A stretch of DNA of 24,703 nucleotides from a virus. The stretch's first letter is position 1. Every line of letters begins with the position of its first letter. The notes under the pieces were generated by a model. The model had not been told where the DNA came from and did not search any database. It saw only the letters and a program-made list of their open reading frames with translations. The stretch covers positions 1-24,703 of IMG/VR virus record IMGVR_UViG_3300034790_000060, one strand, 5' to 3'. The position numbers and the translations under genes were made by a program. Shown here one piece after another: positions 12,993-24,417 of this stretch.

Positions 12993-13778
12993 ATGAAATT
13001 ATTTTTAACAACTGCATGCGTTCTAGCTGCAACATCAGTATCAGCTCAAGAAGTATCAGAATTTGGTGGTCCATATGTAACTTTCTCAGGTGGTGTTGAA
13101 ACCACTGTAGCAAAGACTGCAGCAGATAAGTGGGGCGCAACTACAGATTTTAATATCGGTATTAATACACTTGGCAATGCTGACGTATTGATGGGCTTTA
13201 AAGCTGATGGTGCTGGTGCGCTCACTCTTGATGAGTGGTCAGTTGCTTCAACAGCCGGTGGTGTTGGTTTTGCGTTTGGCGACCAAGATAACATCTTCGT
13301 AGAAGCAGAAAGTGGAACTACTCTTGAAGATCCTGCAATGGCAGAGAGCATTCAATTGAGTTCTATGGGCGCAACGGTTGCCGTAGGGTTCACTGATATC
13401 TCAGCTGATGTAACCGACATCGAAAATGTACAGGCCGCATACGCGGTACCAATGCCTCTAGTAACTATGGTTTCTGGCGACTATAACCTTGACTCAAAAG
13501 AATGGGTACTCGGTGGTCGTGCTGATACTGACTTCGCAGCCATTGGATTAGGTACAACAGTAACTTATGGTTCTGCCTCTGAAAACTTTGCGTTTGAAGC
13601 TGATGCAAGCGTATATGGTATCGTTGCTTATGTTAACGGTGATCAAGGTGATATGCTGCAAAACGTAGGTGCTTCAATCACTCGTGATTTTGCTGGGCTA
13701 ACATTTGAAACAACAGCAAACTATAATATGGATTCAACTAAATTTGTTCCAACCGCAAAATTGGGCTTTAACTTCTAA
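12993..13778 (+). CDS. Phage-encoded outer-membrane beta-barrel (porin-like) protein
   Basis: The 261-aa product has a clear Sec signal peptide: MK, then LFLTTACVLAATSV and a signal-peptidase site SVSA-QE after residue 18. The mature part is rich in Gly, Ala, Thr, Val and Asp, alternates hydrophobic and polar residues as in beta strands (for example VTFSGGVETTV and FAFEADASVYGIVAYV), has a single cysteine that is in the signal, and ends TAKLGFNF with a terminal Phe, the typical outer-membrane beta-signal. It resembles small alphaproteobacterial porins in style. In the infected cell it would be inserted in the outer membrane by the host BAM machinery; it may alter permeability or mask receptors (superinfection exclusion). 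AAGGTAAG is the ribosome-binding site. It stands alone between two terminators. Confidence 0.75.
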   Translation: MKLFLTTACVLAATSVSAQEVSEFGGPYVTFSGGVETTVAKTAADKWGATTDFNIGINTLGNADVLMGFKADGAGALTLDEWSVASTAGGVGFAFGDQDNIFVEAESGTTLEDPAMAESIQLSSMGATVAVGFTDISADVTDIENVQAAYAVPMPLVTMVSGDYNLDSKEWVLGGRADTDFAAIGLGTTVTYGSASENFAFEADASVYGIVAYVNGDQGDMLQNVGASITRDFAGLTFETTANYNMDSTKFVPTAKLGFNF

Positions 13779-19065: not shown

Positions 19066-20478
19066 ATGATTGAAAACACCGTTCTATCAAATCTAATATT
19101 TAATGAATCATACTATCGCAAAGTATATCCTTATATCAAGGACGAGTACTTTGATGATAGTAGTCTTAAAAAGATCTTTGATACTTATTCAACTTACGTT
19201 GAAGAATATAAAGCTCCACCTTCTATTGAAGCTCTTAAAATCTCCCTCGATAAACGCAAAGACTTAAACGAATCTTCTTACCAAAGTATGATGCAAACCG
19301 TTGATGGTCTACACATAGACAATGAAACTAATTTTGATTGGCTTGTTAAAGAAACTGAAAAGTTTTGCCAAGATAAAGACTTGTTTAACTCTATTCGTAA
19401 AGCTATTCTTATTATGGATGGTGAGGAAAAAGATTTAGACAAAGGTGCTATCCCACAACTACTTTCAGACTCGCTAGGTATCAGCTTTGATACATCTGTA
19501 GGTCACGATTTTATTGAAGACTCTGACGCGCGTTATGAATTCTACCATCGTAAAGAAGAACGCATGCCGTTCGATATTGATCTTCTAAACAAAATCACTA
19601 AGGGTGGTTTGCCTCGTAAATCTTTAACTGTATTACTGGCTACAACCGGTGGCGGTAAATCTCTAGTTAAATGCCACGCAGCTGCTAGTTATCTAATGAC
19701 TGGTAAAAACTGTTTGTATATTACTATGGAAATGGCTGAAGAACGTGTTGCAGAACGTATCGATGCTAATATGATGGATGTTACTCTTGACGAATTAAAA
19801 ATGTTACCACGTGATGTTTATAAGAAACGCATGGATCGTATCAAATCAAAATGTACTGGTCAGTTAGTTATTAAGGAATACCCGACAGGTTCTGCTCACG
19901 TTGGTCACTTCCGCCATTTGCTTAATGAATTAAAAATGAAGAAGAACTTTACTCCTGATGTAATCTTTGTTGATTATCTAAACATTTGTGCATCACAACG
20001 TGTTAAAGGTGCTGCTGCGGCAAATAGTTATACTCTGGTAAAATCTATTGCTGAAGAAATCCGTGGTCTTGCTATGGAATACAACTGTGCTGTTGTTTCT
20101 TCATCTCAGTTTAACCGTGATGGCTATGGTAACTCTGATGTAGATCTTACAAACACTTCTGAATCTATGGGTATTACCCACACTGCCGATTGTATTATTG
20201 GTTTGGTTACAACTGAAGAACTTGATAATCTTGGTCAGCTAATGATGAAACAACTTAAAAACCGTTGGGGTGCATTGGATTATTATCGTCGGTTTGTTGT
20301 TGGTATTGATAGATCTAAAATGCAAATCTTTGATCTTGAAGAAGGCGCACAGCGTGGTATCGGAGGTACAAGTGCTGCTAATACTGCTTCGTTTGGTAGT
20401 TCAAATCAAGGCGGTGATAAGACAGCGTTTGGTGGCAGCAATAAAAAATCAATGTTTGCAGCTGGTGGTATTACGTAA
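19066..20478 (+). CDS. 41: Replicative DNA helicase gp41 (DnaB-like)
   Basis: gp41 is the hexameric 5'-3' helicase that unwinds the fork, is loaded by gp59 and carries the primase. The 470-aa protein (T4: 475 aa) has an N-terminal helical domain, a RecA-like core with KSLTVLLATTGGGKSLVK (Walker A near 192-199), ITMEMAEERVAERID, Walker B DVIFVDYLNICAS near 297-309, the SSSQFNRDGYG and LKNRWG elements with the arginine finger region, and a Gly/Ser/Asn-rich C-terminal tail. The ATG at 19066 follows AATCGGAAAA. It is transcribed from its own promoter with a leader hairpin. A late promoter and the putative packaged proteins follow. Confidence 0.95.
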   Translation: MIENTVLSNLIFNESYYRKVYPYIKDEYFDDSSLKKIFDTYSTYVEEYKAPPSIEALKISLDKRKDLNESSYQSMMQTVDGLHIDNETNFDWLVKETEKFCQDKDLFNSIRKAILIMDGEEKDLDKGAIPQLLSDSLGISFDTSVGHDFIEDSDARYEFYHRKEERMPFDIDLLNKITKGGLPRKSLTVLLATTGGGKSLVKCHAAASYLMTGKNCLYITMEMAEERVAERIDANMMDVTLDELKMLPRDVYKKRMDRIKSKCTGQLVIKEYPTGSAHVGHFRHLLNELKMKKNFTPDVIFVDYLNICASQRVKGAAAANSYTLVKSIAEEIRGLAMEYNCAVVSSSQFNRDGYGNSDVDLTNTSESMGITHTADCIIGLVTTEELDNLGQLMMKQLKNRWGALDYYRRFVVGIDRSKMQIFDLEEGAQRGIGGTSAANTASFGSSNQGGDKTAFGGSNKKSMFAAGGIT

Positions 20479-20482
20479 ATAG

Positions 20483-20490
20483 TATAAATA
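20483..20490 (+). promoter_or_regulatory. T4-type late promoter for the putative packaged proteins
   Basis: TATAAATA lies 5 nt after the gene 41 stop and 31 nt before the chosen ATG at 20521. It is an exact late element, and no sigma70 promoter is seen. Confidence 0.75.
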
Positions 20491-20520
20491 ACAGAAAGTA
20501 TAGTTAAGATGGTTAAACAC

Positions 20521-21804
20521 ATGCAAACGTTTACAAAATTCCTGTCAGAGGCGGCTATGGTAAGCAACTTAAAATCTTATATCAGAGACGCACTCGACGT
20601 AACACTTACAGCATCAAGCGGCGGGGTAAATCATATTCGATTCCCAATGGCTGGTAGAGATGCAGATCACGTCAAGGCATTTAAAAAGATAAACATAAAA
20701 GTTGTAGAATACGAGAAGACTTCTATCTCGAGCAAATATCCTACTAAGTTGTTAGTACTTACGAAAGCTATTGGCAAACTTAGAGTTGGCGATTCTATAC
20801 CTTGGGTTAACCGACATGCAGGAGCTGCTAAGAGTGGTCCTCGTATGTTTGGCAACAAATCGCTAACACCGGACGCGTTAGGTCTTGCAGGCAGAACACT
20901 TACATCTGAACAAATAATGTCTATCATTGAGCCAAAACTTGCAAAGAGTTATAACGCCGATACTGTTGCACAACTTATGGGTATGTGCCAAGCTGTTAGA
21001 ACTAAAAGCAATAAAATATCATATACTAATTCATTCGATGTACCTGATCTTAGAGTAGTTTCTGCAGACTTTGGTGAAATACTTTCTGCTATATGGTCAC
21101 AATCTAATCTGCTGTTTAAGAGTTCATTCTTTCCTAAATCTAGTAACGAACCCTTAGTAGATTTCTATGGTGTACGGTTTGGTATTGAATATCCAGTGTC
21201 AGTTAAATCTGGTGCAGGCAGTAAAGTTTCAATACAAAACATTCTTAATTCTATTAACAAAAAAGCTAAGAATGCTTCAGGCGCTGAACTTGCTGCAGAA
21301 AAGTCTCTTGCGGTATTTAAAATAGTTAATGAAATGCCAATGAAAGATCAAATGATCGAGCTCCACAAATTCATGGATACAGAAGCAATTAGAAAGCTTT
21401 CTAGTATTATGAACGTGCGAGTACCTGCTATTACACAAGATACTATAAAGGATTTTGTTGGTAAGTTTGAAGATCAGAAAGATTTAGTGACTGCGCTTGA
21501 ACCGTTCTGGAAAGTTCTGAACACTAAACTCGAAGAGAAAACTAAAACTGGCGATGATAGGTTTAGACTTGTGCTATCACCGTTAGGCGAATCTATTTGG
21601 AAGATACTTAATGCTGACGCTGAAATGCGCGAATCGCTTACACGTCTAGCTAAGCAAGTTACTCTTATTCAAATTAATATTGATGTAACAAAAACAAATA
21701 TTCTGTTTAAGAACAATTACTTTAAAAACTCGACGTTTAAATTTGGCTGGGCTGGATACGCTGGTAAAAACAAACTCGGTTTCCAAATGGTCAAAAAGGG
21801 ATAA
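20521..21804 (+). CDS. Late protein with capsid-targeting N-terminus, possible nuclease-like domain
   Basis: The 427-aa product begins MQTFTKFLSE-AA, close to the T4 capsid-targeting sequence of internal proteins and Alt (MKTYQEFIAE-A), with the prohead protease gp21 rule (I/L)-x-E before the cut. It may be packed in the head and cleaved after residue 10. The middle has PLVDFYGVRFGIEYPVSVKS with D214 and K229, spaced like a PD-(D/E)xK nuclease core, but Ser stands where the second acid is expected, so a nuclease role is tentative. The rest is helical and basic. I chose ATG 20521 since the targeting motif starts there; an ATG at 20509 would add four residues. The next gene carries the same N-terminal motif. 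Confidence 0.6.
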   Translation: MQTFTKFLSEAAMVSNLKSYIRDALDVTLTASSGGVNHIRFPMAGRDADHVKAFKKINIKVVEYEKTSISSKYPTKLLVLTKAIGKLRVGDSIPWVNRHAGAAKSGPRMFGNKSLTPDALGLAGRTLTSEQIMSIIEPKLAKSYNADTVAQLMGMCQAVRTKSNKISYTNSFDVPDLRVVSADFGEILSAIWSQSNLLFKSSFFPKSSNEPLVDFYGVRFGIEYPVSVKSGAGSKVSIQNILNSINKKAKNASGAELAAEKSLAVFKIVNEMPMKDQMIELHKFMDTEAIRKLSSIMNVRVPAITQDTIKDFVGKFEDQKDLVTALEPFWKVLNTKLEEKTKTGDDRFRLVLSPLGESIWKILNADAEMRESLTRLAKQVTLIQINIDVTKTNILFKNNYFKNSTFKFGWAGYAGKNKLGFQMVKKG

Positions 21805-21806
21805 CA

Positions 21807-23051
21807 ATGCACAATTTTAAAGAATTCATATCAGAAGCTGCTGCGGCTAGTAAGAATACTCACATGGAGCATCTCGAAGATGCTATTTTAAACCAAGGTG
21901 TGAATGGCACTCGTGAGGCTATTAACTTCCTAAGAGCATTGCGTGATATGTTAGCTGGTACTGCAAAATCTAAAGTAAATATTAGTGTTAAGTGGGACGG
22001 CGCACCAGCAGTATTTGCTGGTATTGATCCATCTGATAAGAAGTTCTTTGTTGCTAAAAAAGGTATCTTTAATAAGAATCCAAAAGTATACAAGACAAAC
22101 GCAGAAATTGACGCCGATATAGCTTCTGGCGATTTGAATGTTAAAATGAAACTAGCCCTTGCCGAGTTACCAAAACTTGGAATTAAAGGTGTAGTACAAG
22201 GTGATTTCCTATATGCAAAAGATGATCTCAAAGTGGTGGACATTGAAGGTGAACCGCACATTACTTTCCATCCTAATACGATTGTTTACACGGTACCTAA
22301 AAACTCAAAGCTTGGCGAACAAATACTCAGATCCAAGATCGGTGTGGTCTGGCACACAACATACCGAGGAAGTAGCTTTGAAGAAATGTCTGCAAGCTTT
22401 GGAGAGGAGATTGCTTCTGGCCTCAAAGCAACAAAGTCGGTCTGGTCAGTAGACGCTAGTTATTCAGACGTATCTGGTACTGCAAACTTTACTAAAGCTG
22501 AGACAGATAAGCTTAACGCTGTTCTTGGTCAAGCTGGTAAATTGTTTAAAACCATTAAGAAAGAAACACTTGATGGTATATCAGGTAACGATGATACTTT
22601 AACACAAACTAAGAAATTTGTTAATACAAAAATTCGTGCTGGTGAAAGAATTAAGAATCCTAGAACATTCGTAAAAGAGTTAGAAGCTTATATTGCTGCT
22701 ATATACGATAAAGAAGCAGATAAAAGAAAAACAGAAAAAGGTAAGGTTGCTCAGCGTCAAAAGAAAGATGCTACCCTCGAATACTTCAATAAAACAAATC
22801 CAGCTCAACTAGTAGCAGTATTTGAACTTTATAATCTCATCATTGATGCAAAGCATATGGTTATTAGAAAGCTAGATAAAGCAAAACAGGTTGGGACATT
22901 CCTCAAGACTGTTGACGGATATAAAGTAACAGAACAAGAAGGCTTTGTTGCTATTGATAAGATGGGTAAGAACGCAGTCAAACTAATCGATAGATTAGAG
23001 TTTAGTAATGCGAACTTCTCAGACAAATACATCAAAGGCTGGCAAAAATAA
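21807..23051 (+). CDS. Late protein with capsid-targeting N-terminus and KxDG nucleotidyltransferase-like domain
   Basis: The 414-aa product begins MHNFKEFISE-AAAAS, again matching the T4 capsid-targeting signal and the I-x-E cut rule. The domain after it contains ISVKWDGAPAVFAG with K62-W-D64-G65, the motif I of DNA/RNA ligases and capping enzymes, where the lysine takes up AMP or GMP. Further elements are KKFFVAKKGIFNKNPK, GVVQGDFLY (128-136), which sits like the acidic motif III of T4 Rnl2, and SKIGVVWHTTY (176-186), a possible motif IV. I recall such proteins in marine T4-like phages under a DUF name. The C-terminal half is helical and lysine-rich. A ribosome-binding site AAGGGAT stands upstream. 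It is probably co-transcribed with the gene before it from the late promoter. Confidence 0.65.
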   Translation: MHNFKEFISEAAAASKNTHMEHLEDAILNQGVNGTREAINFLRALRDMLAGTAKSKVNISVKWDGAPAVFAGIDPSDKKFFVAKKGIFNKNPKVYKTNAEIDADIASGDLNVKMKLALAELPKLGIKGVVQGDFLYAKDDLKVVDIEGEPHITFHPNTIVYTVPKNSKLGEQILRSKIGVVWHTTYRGSSFEEMSASFGEEIASGLKATKSVWSVDASYSDVSGTANFTKAETDKLNAVLGQAGKLFKTIKKETLDGISGNDDTLTQTKKFVNTKIRAGERIKNPRTFVKELEAYIAAIYDKEADKRKTEKGKVAQRQKKDATLEYFNKTNPAQLVAVFELYNLIIDAKHMVIRKLDKAKQVGTFLKTVDGYKVTEQEGFVAIDKMGKNAVKLIDRLEFSNANFSDKYIKGWQK

Positions 23052-23688: not shown

Positions 23689-23696
23689 TATAAATA
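23689..23696 (+). promoter_or_regulatory. T4-type late promoter overlapping a terminator, for the glycosyltransferase genes
   Basis: TATAAATA is an exact late element directly followed by the terminator stem. The expected start point (about 23702) lies within the 5' arm of the hairpin, so transcripts begun here would escape termination. Confidence 0.65.
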
Positions 23697-23724: not shown

Positions 23725-23760
23725 ATTTAAAATAGATTATTAGAATCGTGGAGTTGGTTG

Positions 23761-24417
23761 ATGAATATTGAAAAGAAAATGACCCATATATGGATTGGGC
23801 CAAAAGCAGCCCCTACTAAATGGATGAACACTTGGAGAGATATGCACCCTGATTGGGAATACAGCGTATTTACTGACGAGATGTTGTGGGCGCGCAAATG
23901 GAGAAATCAATCGCTTATTGAAGAATATTATAGACGAGGAAGATATGCTGGGGCGCATGATCTAATTCGTTATGAGTTGATATATGAACGAGGTGGATTT
24001 TGGCCCGCCGCAGATTCTGTATGTTTACATAATACTGATGAGTTATTCACAAGTCCAGAACACCATGCATATACTGTTTATGAAAGTGAAAAAGCCAAAC
24101 CTGGCTACGTTTCTCCTATTCTTGCTGCAAATGCAGGCAATGAAGTAGTTGGAGCAATCATTGATCAGTTACACAAATTACAACCAAACCAGCTTCATAA
24201 CGAGCCGTTCATGTCTACGGGCAACGCATTCTTGGCTAAGTTTTTACTTCCATTTATGGCTGCTGATAAGGTAACTGTATGGCCTTCGTATACGTTAATA
24301 CCACAATGGTATGGATCTATTAAAAGATATGACGGACCCGGAAAAGTGTACGCCGAACAATATTTTGGTTCTACTGGTGCAAATTTGCAACTTAAAGGAT
24401 ATGATGAAGGGAGATAA
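23761..24417 (+). CDS. Glycosyltransferase-like protein (sugar-binding DXD family) with altered DXD
   Basis: The 218-aa protein resembles the family of Gly_transf_sug (DXD-containing) enzymes such as mannosyl- or capsular sugar transferases. It begins with THIWIGPKAAP (8-18), continues with PDWEYSVFTDE near 30-40 and has the hallmark AGAHDLIRYELIYERGGFW (63-81). Family members follow this with YxDxD; here the positions read PAADSVCL (82-89), so the first Asp of DXD is Ala. The metal/nucleotide-sugar site may be weakened or rebuilt. The ATG at 23761 follows GGAG (23750-23753); the TTG before it is not needed. It lies behind a late promoter and is followed by a second transferase-like gene, suggesting virion or host surface glycan modification. 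Confidence 0.75.
   Translation: MNIEKKMTHIWIGPKAAPTKWMNTWRDMHPDWEYSVFTDEMLWARKWRNQSLIEEYYRRGRYAGAHDLIRYELIYERGGFWPAADSVCLHNTDELFTSPEHHAYTVYESEKAKPGYVSPILAANAGNEVVGAIIDQLHKLQPNQLHNEPFMSTGNAFLAKFLLPFMAADKVTVWPSYTLIPQWYGSIKRYDGPGKVYAEQYFGSTGANLQLKGYDEGR

Follow-up and report, generated by a model that had tools for sequence, protein, structure and literature searches.

In a marine T4-like phage, two neighbouring genes encode proteins whose first ten residues resemble the signal that directs T4 internal proteins into the phage head, which raises the question of whether these proteins are also head cargo and, if so, what they would deliver. An earlier note had proposed that both carry T4-type capsid-targeting sequences (CTS) in front of enzyme-like bodies. 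The window analyzed here, that is, the whole stretch of 24,703 nucleotides in IMG/VR record IMGVR_UViG_3300034790_000060, is a 24.7 kb fragment of the phage genome. It encodes a gyrB-like topoisomerase subunit, tail tube, UvsY, a helicase, a late sigma factor, recombination nuclease subunits, DNA polymerase, gp59, gp32, a UvsX-type recombinase and gp41 helicase (some of these names were assigned by reading the ORFs). The gene for gp41 occupies positions 19066–20478, and the tagged pair, P0001 and P0002, follows directly:

20483–20490, + strand: late promoter octamer TATAAATA, T4-type, exact match, the sole one for the P0001/P0002 pair
20521–21804, + strand: P0001 ORF, 427 aa, start MQTFTKFLSEAA
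20521–20550, + strand: putative P0001 capsid-targeting tag MQTFTKFLSE, from the sequence; about half of the P0001 family is tagged
20551–21804, + strand: cargo 1, P0001 body, unnamed family, possibly PD-(D/E)XK-like, >50 IMG/VR relatives
21160–21207, + strand: P0001 conserved D214 ... S227-V-K229, invariant columns in a 29-sequence alignment
21807–23051, + strand: P0002 ORF, 414 aa, start MHNFKEFISEAA
21807–21836, + strand: putative P0002 capsid-targeting tag MHNFKEFISE, from the sequence; homologues with E10 66/67, F4 60/67
21837–23051, + strand: cargo 2, DUF6267 domain, PF19782 E = 1.3e-112 over residues 17–405; phrog_455
21990–22001, + strand: KWDG (K62–G65), nucleotidyltransferase motif I pattern KxDG; K62, D64 and G65 invariant in 67 sequences
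22938–22994, + strand: EGFVAI ... K392–R396, motif IV/V-like; E378, G379, V381, K392 and R396 invariant

The octamer TATAAATA occurs in six exact copies in the window, and those on the + strand lie upstream of genes. P0002 starts 2 bp past the P0001 stop codon, and no octamer was found upstream of it on its own strand with one mismatch permitted; without an octamer of its own, P0002 can only share the promoter of P0001. The earlier placement of both genes behind an exact late promoter therefore holds for P0001, whereas for P0002 it has to be read as one promoter common to both. A slightly longer frame with an ATG at 20509 (MVKHMQTF...) encloses the P0001 start at 20521, and the homologues at loci L082 and L002 keep both the internal start and the tag. 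The octamer preceded 43 of 154 tagged genes and 115 of 628 other ORFs, a difference so modest that we left it out as evidence.

Several other genes of the window deserve mention. Heme oxygenase (PF01126; 13868–14431, +) and then a ferredoxin-dependent bilin reductase (PF05996; 14653–15369, +) form a phage bilin pathway adjoining the replication genes, and a 261-aa ORF at 12993–13778 (+) has a signal-peptide-like start and a porin-like look, without a Pfam match. On the other side of the pair lie a small DUF1127 protein (PF06568; 23189–23464, +) and a glycosyltransferase-like ORF (23758–24417, +) with a PF04488 sugar-binding region including DXD, preceded by an exact TATAAATA at 23689. DUF1127 is known mainly from Alphaproteobacteria and may hint at the host.

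Conservation and occurrence of the N-terminal tag

Both N-termini can be written as M-x-x-F-x-x-F-(L/I)-x-E. Within the first ten residues of T4 IPIII, targeting depends mainly on positions 4 and 7 and processing on positions 8 and 10 (PMC9026906). P0001 and P0002 both have F4 and F7 at the hydrophobic or aromatic targeting positions, and positions 8–10 read LSE in P0001 and ISE in P0002 in agreement with (I/L)-x-E; the match to the T4 signal that the earlier note had described is thus borne out at all four key positions.

We computed positional entropies for the tags of 67 DUF6267 proteins, which were gathered by six patterns, five within the body and the sixth the N-terminal octamer MHNFKEFI, able to recruit identical tags only, and for which the tag-giving start was chosen where several were possible (a slight bias toward the tag). 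The values were 0.54, 1.42, 1.23 and 0.11 bits at positions 4, 7, 8 and 10, compared with 1.8–2.65 bits at positions 2, 3, 5, 6, 9 and 11; position 7 is F or Y, position 8 is L or I and position 10 is E. The conserved positions are exactly those of T4 IPIII targeting and processing, and E10 is near-invariant among homologues of about 40–87% identity. The untagged DUF6267 protein of S-SZBM1 begins MAKNTHLEH at the point where the tagged proteins continue xKNTHMEH, that is, at the tag end, which indicates that the tag is an addition before an intact domain. Residues 1–19 have pLDDT values below 50 in the AlphaFold model of P0002.

To count the tag, we used the regular expression M-x-x-[hydrophobic]-x-x-[hydrophobic]-[ILVMF]-x-E at ORF starts, and in the window it matched P0001 and P0002 and no other ORF. 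Among 1842 ORFs from nine genomes or contigs, the motif with F, L or Y at position 4 was found in 35, compared with a mean of 5.6 (range 1–9, about 0.3% of ORFs) for decoys in which the same motif was shifted by –2 to +7 residues along the N-terminus; at internal methionines of the nine genomes or contigs the tag motif matched 6 of 6114 times. From the decoy rate, the probability of at least two tagged ORFs in the window is about 0.0045, and that of an adjacent pair about 0.0003. In T4, which served as a control, the motif was found on ipII, ipIII and gp61.1 only; ipI shares the targeting half (MKTFKEF), its I-x-E site lying further downstream. As a separate observation, T4 gp61.1 (NC_000866 18966–19130, locus L197; 54 aa) begins with a complete CTS-like tag, MKTFKEFIKED, and is possibly an internal protein that has escaped recognition.

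In the related loci, 171 of 1899 ORFs were tagged, and after removal of the tag these fell into 30 clusters without detectable similarity to one another; a few of these clusters may be due to chance. The gene immediately upstream of DUF6267 varies, being HAD-type or HD_4 in some loci and in others a member of the P0001 family or of one of several unnamed families; the genes that replace one another there are mostly tagged. The P0001 and DUF6267 families each have tagged and untagged members; DUF6267 without a full tag occurs in several cyanophages and in HTVC008M, which indicates that the domain can work without it. Tagged or near-tagged DUF6267 was also found in Stenotrophomonas phage DLP6 (MMKFTQFLAESKD) and Methylophilales phage Melnitz. 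Tagged genes occur beside head genes too, and in one related genome (G003) the gene of a tagged 709-aa protein is flanked by those of the portal and the gp21 protease, a site taken in T4 by core genes 67/68. Two further carriers, an HD domain related to RelA/SpoT (L060 4453–4998) and a zeta-toxin/AAA_33-type kinase (L112 17744–18802), may regulate nucleotide or tRNA metabolism of the host.

The earlier note had also called for a gp21-type protease. The family PF03420 was not matched in the window, which is a fragment; among related records it is present in 9 of 14, including every record longer than 130 kb.

Tagged proteins in virions of related cyanophages

Published mass spectrometry allowed us to compare the motif, fixed before the comparison, with proteins of purified virions. 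The published list of S-CREM2 virion proteins has 52 entries (PMC10665884, Table 3), among them five of the six tagged ORFs of this phage:

SAM lyase: MKDFDSFLEE
unknown protein, 78 aa: MKDLHSFLTE
APH-like kinase: VKRFDAFLTE
unknown protein encoded between the terminase genes: MQTFSMFFSE
cytidylyltransferase: MKNFSSFLTE

The remaining tagged ORF, which starts with GTG, matches the motif weakly and is absent from the list. In S-SCSM1, one of two tagged ORFs is a virion protein (NMNAT, MKSFLQFLKE), and the other was not detected. The association between tag and virion detection was significant in S-CREM2 (Fisher's test, p = 0.0024) and in both phages combined (p = 0.0008), although CsCl-purified virions may contain contaminants and detection in virions is not equivalent to a location inside the head; indeed, the S-SCSM1 authors themselves raise carry-over. 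The earlier note had named tail and other non-head proteins as carriers that would speak against its proposal; no tail protein carries the tag in T4, S-CREM2 or S-SCSM1.

Other cyanophages showed the same pattern. The protein T4-GC190 of S-SM1 is a virion protein (PMC3037559); it starts MKKFSAFLNEA, and its gene adjoins DUF6267. In S-SZBM1, a cytidylyltransferase is the single enzyme detected in virions (PMC9146016), and it starts MRFRQFIIEA. A kinase of S-CRM01, reported in virions according to its citation in PMC10665884 and identified here as a homologue, starts MISFDQFLSE. The S-CREM2 authors suggest enzyme encapsulation and name no targeting peptide (PMC10665884). We found no report of the tag in these phages in the literature searched, where 'capsid targeting sequence' and 'cyanophage' occurred together only in a T4 review. 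The same tag on about two dozen unrelated proteins, virion enzymes included, looks like a general enzyme-carrying route into the host.

Some tag-like segments were seen away from N-termini. A 69-aa virion-annotated protein of S-SCSM1 (91626–91835; L189 10808–11017) has the tag-like C-terminus ...KKRTFKEFLEYIE. S-CREM2 ORF12 (L185 7704–10313), which is in the virion list, and S-CRM01 g128 (L196 8702–9253), on the – strand, have a tryptophan-rich start followed by the tag-like segments PLRFASFMAEAA and LSLDSFIKEAA, respectively, which may be variants of the tag located further inside the protein. A 444-aa virion protein encoded beside NMNAT in S-SCSM1 was considered as a DUF6267 member and ruled out, having no such Pfam match.

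The two putative cargo bodies

P0002 is assigned to DUF6267 with a score of 377 bits (curated cut-off 27), and its AlphaFold model has a mean pLDDT of 84.3. In addition to the residues listed above, QGD (131–133) is invariant in the 67 sequences; the motifs were assigned as III-, IV- and V-like by eye. EGFVAI aligns locally, but not significantly, with EGYVAV of T4 RNA ligase 1, and the DUF6267 profile has no significant similarity to T4 Rnl1, Rnl2 or DNA ligase. A PDB fold search with the model gave no significant match, RNA and DNA ligases recurring among the weak ones, and a PDB sequence search with the P0001 and P0002 alignments gave no meaningful match. The earlier word 'ligase-like' is supported in this protein by the conserved covalent nucleotidyltransferase pattern, but not by a significant profile or fold match; judged from these residues, we put the chance that DUF6267 is a ligase-like covalent nucleotidyltransferase at about even.

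A viral structure search identified S-PM2 A0A0M6VVW4 as a DUF6267–cytidylyltransferase fusion that matches the fold of P0002 (E = 2e-32), and phrog_455 spans both DUF6267 and cytidylyltransferase. These two observations tie DUF6267 to a family present in virions, and the fusion suggests a joint function; no cytidylyltransferase is annotated in the window. A literature search on DUF6267 found no paper.

P0001 had no match in Pfam, PHROG, NCBIfam or PADLOC. Among annotated phages a relative was found in Phage C48C1 only, compared with more than 50 loci in IMG/VR. In the 29-sequence alignment, E186, upstream of D214, and N240 are likewise invariant. The AlphaFold model (pLDDT 84.5) recovered HincII and HinP1I recurrently as weak matches in a PDB fold search, none significant. 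The PDB fold matches of both models being weak, we make no fold claim. The earlier words 'possibly nuclease-like' find a faint echo in invariant E186, D214 and S227-V-K229, set beside the D...(E)xK catalytic pattern of PD-(D/E)XK nucleases, and in the non-significant HincII and HinP1I matches; a nuclease is a lead that we regard as rather doubtful.

Proposed role, alternatives and known systems

The conserved positions coincide with those defined by mutation in T4, the carriers are many and unrelated, related phages encode a gp21-type protease, and tagged cyanophage enzymes are found in purified virions; on all these points the core of the earlier proposal has gained support. We hold with high confidence that the N-termini of P0001 and P0002 are capsid-targeting sequences. 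Published virion proteomics together with the motif check in relatives makes CTS-mediated packaging likely, and there is good reason to expect both proteins in the head; cleavage after E10 seems fairly probable, and injection into the host somewhat favoured.

We consider the following explanation likely as a whole. P0001 and P0002 would be late-expressed head cargo, with aromatic residues 4 and 7 steering each protein to the prohead core while the head is assembled. The gp21-type prohead protease would cut (I/L)-x-E at positions 8–10, releasing the enzyme within the head, and the released enzyme would pass with the DNA into the next host. In marine T4-like phages, the tag may be a general, exchangeable loading label, several of its cargos being enzymes that act on nucleotides or nucleic acids; DUF6267 would probably be a covalent nucleotidyltransferase, and cargo 1 is presumed to be an enzyme. 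By analogy with T4 IPI, we think that such an injected kit might act at entry to repair or protect phage nucleic acid or to disarm host defence.

The alternative that we take most seriously, unlikely as we judge it, accepts that the tag loads the prohead core and holds that the proteins serve assembly or maturation there, or undergo degradation, rather than being injected as effectors. The tagged 709-aa protein at the site of the T4 core genes would fit this idea, as would the (I/L)xE sites that T4 core proteins carry too; against it, several of the tagged proteins can be recognised as enzymes (SAM lyase, kinases, nucleotidyltransferases) and are still in finished virions. P0001 and P0002 might instead be ordinary late cytoplasmic enzymes with a vestigial tag, their relatives being detected in virions through carry-over of abundant proteins. 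The existence of untagged DUF6267 and the caution of the S-SCSM1 authors agree with this, but near-invariance of E10 despite the divergence of the homologues would be unexpected in a vestige, and virion detection is specifically enriched among tagged ORFs, so that we find it quite improbable.

That the peptide docks elsewhere, for example on the replisome or sliding clamp, and resembles a CTS by convergence seems very improbable. The pair does adjoin gp41, and binding of a clamp or helicase by a short aromatic peptide is conceivable; however, conserved E10 and (I/L)8 suit the protease rule better than a docking peptide, virions of relatives contain tagged proteins, and tagged genes also lie beside head genes. 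A chance resemblance can draw on the fact that only four positions are constrained by the motif, and these loosely, and on the low but real rate of decoy matches; it is contradicted by near-invariance over 67 homologues, recurrence on unrelated neighbours and enrichment over decoys, and is almost certainly wrong.

Returning to tagged cargo as the preferred reading, we lean, with some reservation, toward a general cargo-loading code in which a CTS is swapped among genes of a hypervariable cluster downstream of gp41, and a pre-made repair and counter-defence kit acts before phage expression. Its cargos would include DUF6267, HAD phosphatase-like and zeta-type kinase-like proteins, HD hydrolases, SAM lyase, APH-type kinase and cytidylyl- and NMN adenylyltransferases. 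If this is true, head content could be read from sequence. The presence of enzymes in cyanophage virions has been noted repeatedly, with no known loading route; a sequence-readable tag would predict which proteins are delivered at infection across very abundant ocean viruses. The tag would also give candidate roles to hypothetical gene families, DUF6267 among them, in a way that can be checked on existing proteomics data. The T4 internal-protein system is known mostly from small anti-restriction proteins, and the present reading would extend it to many enzyme families.

The T4 internal proteins IPI, IPII and IPIII resemble the present pair in the ten-residue N-terminal tag with key positions 4, 7, 8 and 10 (MKTYQEFIAE in ipII and ipIII), in being products of late genes and in the gp21-type protease, found here in relatives. 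They differ in their bodies, those of P0001 and P0002 having no Pfam or PHROG match to T4 internal proteins or Alt; the cargo here is 400-aa and enzyme-like, compared with small basic proteins in T4, and the tag in relatives is on many unrelated families. T4 IPI is injected and protects DNA from a restriction enzyme (PMC3012670), and T4 Alt, an ADP-ribosyltransferase, is an enzyme that is carried in the head, is cleaved by gp21 and is injected (PMC9026906). The N-terminus of Alt, MELITELFDE, is not this tag, and its body is unrelated to P0001 and P0002.

The cyanophage cytidylyltransferase/NMNAT-like proteins, SAM lyase and APH-like kinase carry the same tag and are found in purified virions, and the first of these share a gene cluster with DUF6267; they are of other enzyme families, and published work gives them no loading signal. 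S-PM2 A0A0M6VVW4 is one fused polypeptide, in contrast to the free-standing tagged DUF6267 protein described here, but its DUF6267 part matches P0002 in fold and its other part belongs to a family found in virions.
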